DNA of 64,000 nucleotides from NCBI RefSeq assembly GCF_014295415.1, contig NZ_CP052909.1:1922001-1986000 (forward strand). Reading direction: 5' to 3'. Positions 31,745 through 36,429 of this stretch are shown one piece after another. The position numbers and the translations under genes were made by a program. The notes under the pieces were generated by a model. The model had not been told where the DNA came from, did no database searches, and was given only the letters and a program-made list of their open reading frames with translations. Origin of the DNA: Constantimarinum furrinae (GTDB taxonomy: Bacteria; Bacteroidota; Bacteroidia; Flavobacteriales; Flavobacteriaceae). Each line of letters begins with the position of its first letter. Positions within the stretch are counted from its first letter, which is position 1.

Positions 31745-31824
31745 CAGTTGTTTTTTAAGAACGATAAAGCTACTAAAGTTTTGTCAAAATTTCCTTTCTC
31801 AATTCCGAATTCTGAATTAAACTG

Positions 31825-31832
31825 TATTTTTG
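31825..31832 (+). promoter_or_regulatory. -7 box TATTTTTG of bshC
   Basis: A perfect TAnnTTTG box lies 20 bases before ATG 31853. It falls inside the longer open frame that begins at 31748, which argues for the shorter protein. Confidence 0.5.
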
Positions 31833-31852
31833 ATAAAACTTCAAGACTAACA

Positions 31853-33448
31853 ATGCCCAAAAGCGCTATTCCCTATAAAGAAACCGGTTATTTTTCAGAG
31901 TTGATCTGTGATTATCTTTCCGAAAAACCCGAATTAAAACCGTTTTATGAGTATTTTCCGAAGGAGGAATTCTTCTTGGCACAACTTCAGAAAAAAGGTG
32001 CTTCTTTCTCTACCGATGCACGACAAATACTAGTAAACCGACTTACTGCACAATATGAGCAGATAAACACTTCCGAAGCAACGCGGAAGAACATAGAGAC
32101 CTTGGCGTCAAATAAAACCTTTACCATCACGACAGGGCATCAGCTTAATCTTTTTACCGGTCCGTTGTATTTTCTTTACAAGATCTTTTCGGTGATCAAT
32201 CTTTCTGAAAAACTAGATAAGGAGTATCCCGATTATGATTTTGTGCCGGTGTATTGGATGGCGACTGAAGATCACGATTTTGAGGAGATCAATTATTTTA
32301 ATCTCTTCGGAAACAAGGTACAATGGAATAGAAAGGCGGGAGGGGCAGTAGGAGAACTGAATACAGATGGACTGGAAGTGATTCAAAAAGAACTACAAAC
32401 GGCCTTAGGAGGAGGTAAAAATGCTAAGGAATTAGTTGCGTTATTTTCTCAAGCCTATACCCAACACACGAATCTTGCTGATGCTACCCGGTTTATAGCA
32501 AATGCCTTATTTGCTGACTATGGCCTTGTTATCGTAGACGGAAATGATGCGACACTTAAGAAGGCGTTTATTCCTTATGCTGAAAAGGAGCTGACAGAAA
32601 ATCTATCTTATAATGAAGTTTCTGAAACCACAGCGCGACTCACCGCTTTAGGTTACAAAGAACAGGTGCATCCCAGAGAGATCAATTTATTTTATCTGAA
32701 AGAAGGATTACGGGAACGTATCATAGCGAAGGACGGGACATTTTTTATAAATGATACTGAATTGTCTTTTTCTGAAGCCGAAATTCTTAAGGAACTTAAA
32801 GACCATCCCGAAAGATTTTCACCCAATGCCTTGTTGCGACCATTGTTTCAGGAGTTGGTTCTTCCTAATTTATGCTATGTTGGAGGAGGGGGAGAATTGG
32901 CCTATTGGTTTCAGTTGAAAGATTATTTTAATTCTGTGAATGTACCCTTTCCAATGCTTTTGCTTCGGAATTCGGTAGTGCTTTTACCCAAAAATCTTTC
33001 AGAGAAAATGGAAAAACTGGATGTTGAATTCGCACTACTATTTCTTCCGAAGTCGGACTTAGAATCTTACTATACCAAAAAGATCAGCGAAATACCTATA
33101 GATCTTTCTACACAACGGAAGCATTTACAGGAACAATTTAAATCCTTGTATCAAACAGCGGAAAATACGGATGCATCTTTTGTGGGTGCTGTTGCTGCAC
33201 AGGAAAAGAAGCAATTAAACGGTCTGGATCATCTTGAAAAGCGACTGTTAAAAGCACAGAAAAGAAAGTTAGCCGATCGGCTACACAGGCTAACCGCAAT
33301 ACAAGAGCAACTGTTTCCAAAGGGGAATTTACAGGAGCGCGTCCTTAATTTTGCAGAATTTTATAACGATCAAGGGCCGGGACTATTGGAACAGTTAAAA
33401 GAGGAACTTGATCCGTTATCCGGGGATTTTTCCATCATAAAGATCTAA
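31853..33448 (+). CDS. bshC: Bacillithiol biosynthesis cysteine-adding enzyme BshC
   Basis: BshC adds cysteine to glucosaminyl-malate in the last step of bacillithiol synthesis, the low-molecular-weight thiol that replaces glutathione in Firmicutes and many Bacteroidota. The 531-residue protein shows the Rossmann-like core with TGHQLNLFTGPLYFLYKI, followed by WMATEDHDFEEINYF, and GGGGELAYWFQLK. A long coiled coil at about 430-500 mediates dimerisation. I chose ATG 31853 because a promoter box lies just upstream. The extra 35 codons of the longer frame are unlike the family and would cover the intergenic region. bshA and bshB are not in this window. Confidence 0.93.
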   Translation: MPKSAIPYKETGYFSELICDYLSEKPELKPFYEYFPKEEFFLAQLQKKGASFSTDARQILVNRLTAQYEQINTSEATRKNIETLASNKTFTITTGHQLNLFTGPLYFLYKIFSVINLSEKLDKEYPDYDFVPVYWMATEDHDFEEINYFNLFGNKVQWNRKAGGAVGELNTDGLEVIQKELQTALGGGKNAKELVALFSQAYTQHTNLADATRFIANALFADYGLVIVDGNDATLKKAFIPYAEKELTENLSYNEVSETTARLTALGYKEQVHPREINLFYLKEGLRERIIAKDGTFFINDTELSFSEAEILKELKDHPERFSPNALLRPLFQELVLPNLCYVGGGGELAYWFQLKDYFNSVNVPFPMLLLRNSVVLLPKNLSEKMEKLDVEFALLFLPKSDLESYYTKKISEIPIDLSTQRKHLQEQFKSLYQTAENTDASFVGAVAAQEKKQLNGLDHLEKRLLKAQKRKLADRLHRLTAIQEQLFPKGNLQERVLNFAEFYNDQGPGLLEQLKEELDPLSGDFSIIKI

Positions 33449-33475: not shown

Positions 33476-33560
33476 AATTGCTTTTAAATCGGCAACCACC
33501 AACTTCCGACTACCTACTTTTAATTACTGACTTACGACTTCTCACGCCTCACAACTACAA
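33476..33560. repeat. Degenerate intergenic repeat, second copy
   Basis: Between the convergent bshC and ATP-grasp genes lies a stretch with TCGGCAACCACC and near-repeats such as CTTCCGACTACCTAC, TGACTTACGACTTCTCACG. The reverse complement shares GTGGTTGCCGA and GGAAGT/GTCAG-like units with 17680-17775. It has no coding potential. Confidence 0.5.
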
Positions 33561-34598
33561 GGTTGCAAGCCTGCTGTTAAACAGATAATCCTCATAGGTT
33601 TTGTTGTAATGTACTTTCTTCTCGATAGACTTGATCACTTCGGTAGAGAAATCGGTTTCGTACATGGCACCCATTACATTGAGTCCGCCCGGGCTAAATA
33701 CATTAATTTCCATCAATTTATTCCCAACAATGTCTATTCCTACCAAGAACATACCGTCCTGAACGAGTTTAGGACGTACGATCTCGGCGAGTTCCATGAT
33801 CTGATCGGTCATTTTGGCTTTTTGTGGTCTCCCACCGGCATGAATATTACTGCGAATATCGCCACTCGCATTCACCCGTTGCATTATGGCGTATTTTCCA
33901 TCTGCCGATTTTAAGGGCTCTCCGTTCATTAAAAATAATCGGGTATCACCGTCCTTGGCAGCAGGTAAATATTCCTGGGCGATCACATATCCATCCCGGC
34001 ATATGGCATCGATGGTTTGAGTAAGGTTGTGTTCGTTCTTTTTATCCATCATAAATACATTGGTCCCACCGGACCCCTGAAGCGGTTTGAGGATCATTTT
34101 TTGTTTTTGTTCTTTAAAGAAATCTTTAATCTCTTTATGATCTCTGGAAATAATGGTTCGCGGTCGAAGGATCTCTGGAAAATGTTGAAAGTACATTTTG
34201 TTTACGGCTCCCGCCAGACTGCTTGGGTGATTAAGCACGATCACTCTATCCCGTGTAGCTATTTCTCCAAAAATAAAGGCAGCATTTTGAGCCCAGTCTC
34301 GTTCATTAATTTCATCGGAAGGGTCGTTCCTTAGAAATAACACATCGAGATCCTTGGATGAGATTCGAGTGAAACTTTCTTTTTGAACTGCTTTAAAATA
34401 GGTTTCCTGTGTTTTAAAATTTGTTCCACTTATTGTTTTGCATCTTGCAGAAAGATGGCCGTCGCTGGCATAGGCCAATTCGCCTACACCAATAAAGTAA
34501 ACCTCATGGTCTCTTTTATAGGCGGCGTATCCTAATGCAGGTGTAGTGAAATTTGGCTTTTCGGTAGCGTGATCATTTATTATAAATGCTATTTTCAT
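33555..34598 (-). CDS. ATP-grasp ligase related to prokaryotic glutathione synthetase
   Basis: This 347-residue protein has the order of domains of GshB: an N-terminal Rossmann-like part (KIAFIINDHATEKPNFTT), a central lid with KMILKPLQGSGGTNVFMM, and the ATP/metal site GDTRLFLMNG with EINVFSPGG, where the GshB family has EINVTSPTG. ATP-grasp ligases join a carboxylate to an amine through an acyl phosphate. True glutathione synthetase is unlikely to be its role: no gshA is near and the neighbouring bshC indicates bacillithiol. It starts eight bases after the QEGLA-protein gene stops, so the pair forms one operon. The substrate is unknown; a peptide or protein C-terminus is possible. Confidence 0.82.
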   Translation of the reverse strand: MKIAFIINDHATEKPNFTTPALGYAAYKRDHEVYFIGVGELAYASDGHLSARCKTISGTNFKTQETYFKAVQKESFTRISSKDLDVLFLRNDPSDEINERDWAQNAAFIFGEIATRDRVIVLNHPSSLAGAVNKMYFQHFPEILRPRTIISRDHKEIKDFFKEQKQKMILKPLQGSGGTNVFMMDKKNEHNLTQTIDAICRDGYVIAQEYLPAAKDGDTRLFLMNGEPLKSADGKYAIMQRVNASGDIRSNIHAGGRPQKAKMTDQIMELAEIVRPKLVQDGMFLVGIDIVGNKLMEINVFSPGGLNVMGAMYETDFSTEVIKSIEKKVHYNKTYEDYLFNSRLATL

Positions 34599-34605
34599 AT
34601 ATTTT

Positions 34606-36429
34606 TTAATTTAATAATTCGGTTAGTTCTATTCCTTTTCTAAGTCTTGCAAGTCTTTTTTGTACAGATTCCCGCTCTAGAAATCTTGGTAATACAGGTT
34701 GTTTTAATACCTCCCTGTGCAACAATTCCTGAATGAGATTTATATGTGTAGTGTTAAATTTACCTGTATACAACGGTTCAAGTGCACCGCCATCTTTCAA
34801 ATAGTCCAACAGATCGATTAGACCTGCCAGATATACCGCATCTTTAGTGAGGCCTCCTCCGCGATAGATTCGCATAGTGATATAATATGCGGTTTTTTCC
34901 GGGAAATTATGACCCTTCTGCAAGAGCGTAAAGGTTTCAATAAAAGTGGCACCAAAGATCATTGAATTTGCTGCGATGACCCGCCCTGCTAGCAATCGGA
35001 GACGATTTACTGTGAGTCCGTTAACCAAATATTCGGCCAACACGGCAAGACCCTCCTGCAACTGATCGTAACCCGCAAAACCGGCGTACATTTGTTTAAT
35101 GGGCTGACGCTTTCCATTGCAGTAAGTGAGTATATGTGTTCCTATCTCATGTTGTATGAGGGCATCACAACGGTCGGCATCCATAGAAAGTTCTTCGCTT
35201 ATAAATAATCTGGTTTCAGAAACCATGATTCCGGCCACATCGCCACGTATTTCAAGACATAAAGGGATATTTGGGAATTTATCCTGATAATAGTTAAGCT
35301 CTTTCTGGGCGTGTTCGGCAAATTCATAACAGTTAAAGCGCTCTATCTTCGCCGGATTATCTCCCTGGGGAAACTTTTTAAGGATGGCATTGGCACCGTC
35401 AAGCACATGTTCTTCAATAATACCGTAGAGACTTTCTCCTATAAACCTGAAGTTATCTGTTCCTCGTTCTTCGAGCATGGTAAGCTGCTTTTCTATTTCC
35501 AGACGTTTGTCTCTAAGGATAAAAGATAAGGTAGGATCGTCTACTTTTTCAATAGGGATGTCGTATAATTTTCGTTTTTCCTGTTCCGGATCCAACGCAA
35601 TGAGTCGGTAATTAAAAGCAGGGGGCTTTTCGAAATTATTCTTCTTAAAAAGTTCCCATTGTCTCGTACTGTTTACCGGAGTGGTTCGGAGCAGAAATGA
35701 CATTTTCTCACTGATCTTTGCAAGGGTAGAATCGGCATCCAGAGTAATCCTGTCGATGTTTGTTTTACCCAGCATTAGATAATGATCGTAGGGATTTGAA
35801 GTTTGAACCCTTATAAATTCGTAAGCGGCACGCTTAATGATCTCTGAAAGGCGTGAAACAAATTTTCGGTAGAAAAGGGAAAAGATCTCATTCTCTTCAG
35901 GACGTTCGTAGATGGTAGGAACTGCCAGACCGATGATCAAACTACCCGATTCTTTCGTTTCTTCAACGTTAAGCAATCCTTCCAGGTGCTCGGGGTGTCG
36001 GGTATGTGTATCGGAAATGGTCACGCTAATTTCCGGGTAGATTACCCGTAATTCATTGATACCTTCTTCAAGTGCCTTAATGGTTGCCGGAGCCTTCGAT
36101 TTAGGGCATGAAATTTCAAACTCGGCCTGATGGTCTTTTCGTACCGGCCACATTTCAATTATGAGAAAGGCATTTAATTTTTTTGAAATATTAGTGGACA
36201 AGCACTCAAGCAAATCAGAAATTGGATACGAATCCTTTACTATTAGATAGGATCCCTGAGTTTTCAATAAACCTGAAAAAAGATGATCTGTTTTTTTGTA
36301 CCGATACACACAGATATAAGGGAGTAGTTTGTCAATATGAAGCAAACCACCGTCTGGTAAAGATTCATTTACCGGAAGTTCATTTTCCAAATTATGACAG
36401 ACTTGCTCTAATAGGTCGGTTTTGATCAT
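34606..36429 (-). CDS. QEGLA-motif metallopeptidase-like protein (DUF1704 family)
   Basis: This 607-residue cytosolic protein belongs to the family annotated as flavohemoglobin expression-modulating QEGLA motif protein (DUF1704). The zinc-site signature HExxxH is present as HEIGTH (His427, Glu428, His432), and QEGLA follows at 458-462 with Glu459 as a possible third ligand. The same family includes the human tubulin detyrosinase MATCAP, a C-terminal carboxypeptidase, so a carboxypeptidase role is a fair inference. Residues 1-230 are a separate N-terminal domain that I cannot assign. No signal peptide is seen. The ATP-grasp gene follows after eight bases, which couples a possible ligase with a possible peptidase. 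Confidence 0.85.
   Translation of the reverse strand: MIKTDLLEQVCHNLENELPVNESLPDGGLLHIDKLLPYICVYRYKKTDHLFSGLLKTQGSYLIVKDSYPISDLLECLSTNISKKLNAFLIIEMWPVRKDHQAEFEISCPKSKAPATIKALEEGINELRVIYPEISVTISDTHTRHPEHLEGLLNVEETKESGSLIIGLAVPTIYERPEENEIFSLFYRKFVSRLSEIIKRAAYEFIRVQTSNPYDHYLMLGKTNIDRITLDADSTLAKISEKMSFLLRTTPVNSTRQWELFKKNNFEKPPAFNYRLIALDPEQEKRKLYDIPIEKVDDPTLSFILRDKRLEIEKQLTMLEERGTDNFRFIGESLYGIIEEHVLDGANAILKKFPQGDNPAKIERFNCYEFAEHAQKELNYYQDKFPNIPLCLEIRGDVAGIMVSETRLFISEELSMDADRCDALIQHEIGTHILTYCNGKRQPIKQMYAGFAGYDQLQEGLAVLAEYLVNGLTVNRLRLLAGRVIAANSMIFGATFIETFTLLQKGHNFPEKTAYYITMRIYRGGGLTKDAVYLAGLIDLLDYLKDGGALEPLYTGKFNTTHINLIQELLHREVLKQPVLPRFLERESVQKRLARLRKGIELTELLN

Follow-up and report, generated by a model that had tools for sequence, protein, structure and literature searches.

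A bacterial MATCAP peptidase encoded with a GshB-fold ATP-grasp ligase: a candidate module for making and breaking amide bonds

ATP-grasp ligases that come with a dedicated hydrolase are already known as a general kind of system, among them RimK and RimB, which act in the glutamylation of ribosomal protein S6 and in its removal. Enzymes of the FGase, AstE, and AspA families split N-acyl-glutamate or N-acyl-aspartate. In humans, the tubulin carboxypeptidases of the MATCAP/TMCP family (PF08014) include TMCP1 and TMCP2, which also remove glutamates (PMC10499314). The gene set described here was not met in the literature that we searched: no paper linked an ATP-grasp enzyme to N-formylglutamate amidohydrolase or to MATCAP in bacteria, the older survey of ATP-grasp amidoligases (Iyer et al. 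2009), which may mention the set, lying outside the scope of that search.

The gene pair and its two proteins

The window analyzed here is a stretch of 64,000 nucleotides from Constantimarinum furrinae (NZ_CP052909.1). ORF calls on its minus strand placed an intact MATCAP/DUF1704 gene, first in transcription, and an intact ATP-grasp gene at positions 33555-36429. The original prediction had described a two-gene operon, and the adjacency, the strand, the length of 607 aa, and the HEIGTH and QEGLA motifs all stood, but the intergenic gap is seven bases rather than eight. As a full description of the pair, it missed a second domain (residues 1 to ~230), the usual third gene, and a second genomic copy. 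The features are as follows.

34606..36429, minus strand: MATCAP/DUF1704 protein with two domains, first gene of the pair (607 aa; ORF, Pfam MATCAP E 1.1e-90, AlphaFold mean pLDDT 93.2)
35746..36429, minus strand: predicted N-terminal domain, FGase relative without zinc ligands, residues ~1-228 (profile-profile comparison, Foldseek, lost ligand motifs)
34606..35733, minus strand: predicted MATCAP metallo-carboxypeptidase domain, residues 233-607 (best match PDB 7z5g; profile E 2.4e-11 to 7z5g)
35134..35151, minus strand: HEIGTH (HExxxH) zinc-binding and catalytic motif, residues 427-432 (H427, E428, and H432 in 58/58 relatives)
35044..35058, minus strand: QEGLA motif, residues 458-462, with E459 as predicted third zinc ligand (58/58 relatives)
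33555..34598, minus strand: GshB-fold ATP-grasp ligase of the PRK12458 subfamily, second gene (347 aa; ORF, Pfam/NCBIfam, model pLDDT 94.1, TM-score to 1gsa 0.81 by query)
33675..34202, minus strand: ATP-grasp catalytic domain, residues 133-308 (PF02955, E 2.4e-53)

A gene for BshC, the bacillithiol cysteine-adding enzyme, lies at window positions 31748-33448. A bacillithiol link was considered and dropped, since BshC is convergent with the ligase and common only to close relatives; its presence is probably just synteny.

The first protein scored 304.6 bits against Pfam MATCAP (PF08014; cut-off, 27), placing it in the family, and 316.6 bits against the QEGLA equivalog TIGR02421, below the cut-off of 338.65. 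Its AlphaFold model found human MATCAP (7z5g) as the best PDB match in Foldseek, with a TM-score of 0.66-0.67 by target, and the zinc site, an HExxxH with a downstream Glu (H427, E428, H432, and E459), was invariant. By its predicted structure, the window peptidase is thus truly homologous to human MATCAP and its active site is intact, as the original prediction had supposed.

Residues 1-231 matched no Pfam family. Nevertheless, a profile of this domain built from the 58 relatives aligned with the FGase family at 96% probability over 216 columns, compared with 0.8% and 0.1% for unrelated profiles; a shallow comparison (7 versus 11 sequences) had given 3%. With weak E-values, Foldseek returned a phage poly-gamma-glutamate hydrolase, the FGase 2q7s, and carboxypeptidase-like and other phosphorylase/hydrolase-fold enzymes. 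On these profile and model comparisons, the N-terminal domain appears to share both ancestry and fold with FGase (PF05013). The D-x-H zinc motif of FGase is replaced by E92-x-W94, in which the E is invariant and the W is found in 48 of the 58 relatives, and the other zinc motifs (HxG and FExDLNR) were absent from the domain in these relatives. Because the FGase zinc motifs are missing, we regard the window protein as a fusion in which the FGase part is apparently inactive and the MATCAP peptidase is intact.

The second protein matched GSH-S_ATP (PF02955, 180.6 bits) and GSH-S_N (PF02951, 44.1 bits) and, with 434 bits, passed the cut-off of 408 for PRK12458, which NCBIfam names a "glutathione synthetase" subfamily; it fell below both GshB equivalog cut-offs (NF003573, 221.5 versus 272 bits; TIGR01380, 206 versus 299 bits). 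A second, clade A ligase from the same genome (see below) was above NF003573 (282.8 bits) and below TIGR01380. Structurally, the closest match of the model was E. coli glutathione synthetase, followed by RimK and ArgX/LysX, and no tubulin tyrosine ligase was among the top 50 structural matches. The ligase scored 72.1 bits against RimK TIGR00768 (cut-off, 143.4) and 13.4 bits against the tubulin tyrosine ligase family PF03133 (cut-off, 20.1). The proposed correspondence to tubulin tyrosine ligase therefore had to be abandoned in favor of the GshB/RimK branch.

Aligned with GshB, the ligase retains the nucleotide and catalytic residues, together with a RimK-like RSNxHxGG loop. Thr288 and Glu292 of E. 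coli GshB, acceptor-site residues reported from mutagenesis to bind the gamma-glutamyl group, are both kept in all nine GshB sequences aligned (E. coli and eight gammaproteobacterial), whereas in 12/12 of the module-type ligases aligned Thr288 is replaced by Gly and Glu292 is variable (Gly and Val, respectively, in the window protein). The predicted pocket thus differs from that of a GshB using gamma-glutamylcysteine, in keeping with the original prediction. Furthermore, no gamma-glutamylcysteine synthetase (GCS2, PF04107; Glu_cys_ligase, PF04262) was matched in the 99.97% complete genome, and in at least four gammaproteobacterial genomes the ligase, next to MATCAP, coexists with a true GshB (Thr/Glu) encoded elsewhere. 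Taken together, the missing synthetase, the lost Thr/Glu pair, and the coexistence with true GshB indicate that the ligase is very probably not a glutathione synthetase and that the name is wrong.

This annotation error is common, the ligase being called glutathione synthetase in many genomes. In Photobacterium damselae, A0J47_RS17020 ("GshB") and the adjacent RS17025 (QEGLA) were upregulated 38- and 27-fold, respectively, in 1% versus 3% NaCl, and RimK was upregulated 52-fold (PMC10308900); the virulence inference in that transcriptome study leans on the glutathione synthase name. Since Photobacterium sp. GJ3 has a clade A ligase with an FGase-MATCAP fusion, RS17020 is, by analogy, probably a non-glutathione ligase of the kind described here.

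Distribution and composition of the gene set

We surveyed 247 evenly drawn Bacteroidota genomes, counting PRK12458-type ligases above about 390 bits. MATCAP was found in 15 genomes and the ligase in 14: both genes were present in 14, MATCAP only in 1, and the ligase only in 0. In all 14, the two genes shared a strand and lay no more than about 2.2 kb apart, usually less than 1 kb, a pairing far above chance. In a scan of GTDB genomes restricted to the best 80 loci by similarity, and hence biased to the window's type, the ligase stood beside MATCAP in 79 of the 80; in the 80th, the contig ends there. These loci came from about a dozen phyla: Bacteroidota, Planctomycetota, Verrucomicrobiota, Kiritimatiellota, Gemmatimonadota, Acidobacteriota, Calditrichota, Balneolota, Poribacteria, Myxococcota, Thermodesulfobacteriota, and Pseudomonadota. 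The set is mobile and widespread, and the two genes are conserved as neighbors, as the original prediction implied. The median gap from MATCAP to ligase was 9 bases, with overlap in 24 of 78 loci, and the FGase and MATCAP genes mostly overlap. MATCAP and ligase distance matrices correlated with an r of 0.81 (0 of 2,000 permutations as high), which fits matched partners, although co-inheritance alone also yields a high correlation.

Among 40 relatives, 18 MATCAP matches in 14 genomes were found, and in the neighborhoods fetched a ligase was near every copy except one. This orphan short MATCAP (L031:6907-8058) has neither ligase nor FGase and has lost catalytic residues (HEIGVN and QAGLA), a pattern that would fit decay of the peptidase once its partners are gone. 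A solitary ligase gene exists on an Ensifer adhaerens plasmid.

A tree of the MATCAP domain gave three fully supported groups, clades A, B, and C. Clade B, to which the window protein belongs, has the long N-terminal domain and the usual order FGase-MATCAP-ligase; the usual three-gene set of an FGase relative, MATCAP, and ligase is also carried on pSymB of Sinorhizobium meliloti. In clade A the usual order is ligase-FGase-MATCAP, with the last two fused into one protein in L028, L036, L169, and Photobacterium L177. Clade C consists of short MATCAPs, common in gammaproteobacteria, that are accompanied by neither this ligase nor FGase; the ligase is therefore not a requirement for the peptidase everywhere. 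In 274 gammaproteobacteria the ligase was adjacent in 12 of 13 genomes with a long-form MATCAP and in 0 of 25 with a short form.

Both types, A and B, are present in the window's genome. Its second, diverged operon (C1:2452-2455 kb; L023:6220-9272) encodes a ligase, an FGase, and a short MATCAP, with identities to the window proteins of 35% for the ligase and 29% for the MATCAP domain. The chromosomal slot that clade A holds in relatives is taken by the B pair in Gelidibacter and Winogradskyella, and hybrid ligase-FGase-MATCAP-ligase sets occur in L043, G156, and G141. This exchange and these hybrids suggest that the two types serve the same kind of function.

Additional genes and copies were seen in some operons. 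Between ligase and FGase, clade A operons contained a 3-mercaptopyruvate-sulfurtransferase-like gene (L026:420-1244, L029:4461-5303, and L033:8567-9391) or an uncharacterized 110-aa gene (L027 and L034); such genes were confined to 3 to 4 clade A or hybrid operons. Tandem copies were present in Verrucomicrobiota and Planctomycetota (L067, L085, L097, and L106), with as many as three MATCAP-ligase pairs or with a single MATCAP followed by three ligases.

The third gene varies. An FGase was found in 51 of 72 well-flanked type-B loci, and in 12 of the 21 lacking it, an AstE/AspA-like deacylase gene adjoins the ligase, running in the same direction in eight and converging on it in four. The two never occurred together (0/72; P = 2e-8, kinship not corrected for), a mutual exclusion in gene content. 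Where the AstE-like gene occurs, eight of 12 genomes have no FGase genome-wide; the four with a window-type locus (G000, G012, L041, and L042) have one FGase each elsewhere. At the window locus, neither FGase nor AstE adjoins the pair. The FGase of the second operon is above the PF05013 cut-off, with the predicted fold and metal motifs present, and third-gene proteins scored 17-36 bits against the HutG model (cut-off, 278.75).

Candidate function and its alternatives

We tentatively favor placing the pair, as a type-B representative, in a widespread cytosolic module that makes and breaks amide bonds. The GshB-fold ligase would convert the free carboxylate of an acceptor into an acyl-phosphate at the cost of ATP and join an amino acid to it, and the zinc-dependent MATCAP domain would take one or more C-terminal residues off the product. 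The third, M14-like-fold amidohydrolase, an FGase relative or the AstE/AspA relative replacing it, would cleave an acyl-amino-acid amide; the bond in question is plausibly the first one, which is not a peptide bond. The fused dead FGase domain would probably be a scaffold or a dimer partner of an active FGase, which in the window's genome would be supplied by the second operon. The chemistry of FGase, AstE, and AspA is the only hint to that of the substrate; by analogy with the known substrates of these families and of RimK, the added residue may well be acidic. Sequence and models show the gene set, the folds, and the intact ligase and peptidase active sites; the direction and the reversibility of the reactions are inferred. 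A single operon that yields both a ligase and hydrolases would squander ATP, except where the enzymes attack different bonds or are under regulation.

A possible but less likely function is one-way synthesis of a small peptide or acyl-amino-acid metabolite, built by the ligase or ligases and trimmed to its final form by the two hydrolases. The order FGase-MATCAP-ligase-ligase-ligase in L085 and L097 is what stepwise peptide assembly would lead one to expect, and the ATP-grasp enzymes DcsG, PsnB, and MdnB/C are among the structural neighbors of the ligase. However, the set has no conserved companion gene for a dedicated precursor, acyltransferase, exporter, or regulator, and L067 repeats MATCAP-ligase as pairs with one FGase, an arrangement that is better suited to matched make-and-break partners.

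The original prediction of a bacterial counterpart of the tubulin tyrosination cycle, extended here to polyglutamylation, has the ligase adding and MATCAP removing a residue at the C terminus of a specific protein. Conserved neighborhood, homology to human MATCAP, and a pocket unlike that of GshB all survive from it; moreover, human TMCP1 and TMCP2 take off glutamates too (PMC10499314). RimK, the next closest ligase fold, adds glutamates to the C terminus of S6, and type-B ligases themselves end in a conserved motif, N-x-x-[LM]-A-T-[LM] (window positions 33555-33575), with ATL as the last residues in 30 of 79. This motif is absent from the partner proteins and lost in Sphingobacteriaceae, and it could serve either in packing or as a C-terminal peptide target. 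Nevertheless, we consider such a cycle unlikely: the ligase is not of the tubulin tyrosine ligase family, a cycle of a single residue leaves the third amidohydrolase unexplained and superfluous, and the acceptor need not be a protein. The loci contained no conserved substrate protein; in particular, no conserved small protein lies near the operon in those examined, and the small ORFs that precede it in S. meliloti and E. adhaerens are unrelated. A version in which the GshB-type ligase and the MATCAP carboxypeptidase with its dead FGase scaffold are joined by an acyl-amino-acid hydrolase, the eukaryotic tubulin carboxypeptidases being drawn from its kin, seems quite improbable.

Finally, synthesis and salvage of glutathione or an ophthalmate-like gamma-glutamyl peptide, as the best structural match (1gsa) and the NCBIfam name would suggest, is very improbable and largely refuted by the sub-cut-off GshB scores, the missing GCS2/Glu_cys_ligase protein, the changed Thr288/Glu292 positions, and the separate true GshB of other genomes.

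With this set, bacterial kin of the tubulin carboxypeptidases gain a concrete biochemical context, with pSymB of S. meliloti 1021 as a tractable model, so that one can look directly for the substrate of a family whose sole designation is "flavohemoglobin expression-modulating."

Comparison with known systems

Human MATCAP/TMCP and the bacterial protein share a homologous metallopeptidase domain, HExxxH with a downstream Glu, and the fold. However, identity is only ~18%, the bacterial domain is fused to an apparently inactive FGase domain, and its gene stands with that of a ligase and often that of an amidohydrolase; the bacterial substrate is unlikely to be tubulin. The ligase resembles E. coli GshB in fold, in its ATP and Mg residues, and in its N-terminal domain, but its gamma-Glu-Cys pocket residues are changed, its genome has no GshA, and in other genomes it coexists with a true GshB. 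The third gene shares with HutG and the AstE/AspA deacylases either the FGase fold and metal motifs or AstE/AspA-like sequence, yet it scores far below the HutG cut-off.

The own genome also encodes, in one cluster (C1:871-874 kb; L024:5118-8368), RimK, a RimB-like retropepsin, a second RimK, and an AstE/AspA-like gene, a parallel ligase-plus-hydrolase set. RimK and RimB are like the module in pairing an ATP-grasp ligase with a dedicated peptidase and in the RSNxHxGG loop; the module's peptidase, however, is of another superfamily, and its ligase is below the RimK family cut-off (72 versus 143 bits). The NAGGN osmolyte cluster, cyanophycin CphA/CphB, and glutathionylspermidine synthetase/amidase likewise combine an ATP-grasp ligase with its own hydrolase, but these hydrolases belong to other families, and none of their accessory genes was seen in the module loci.
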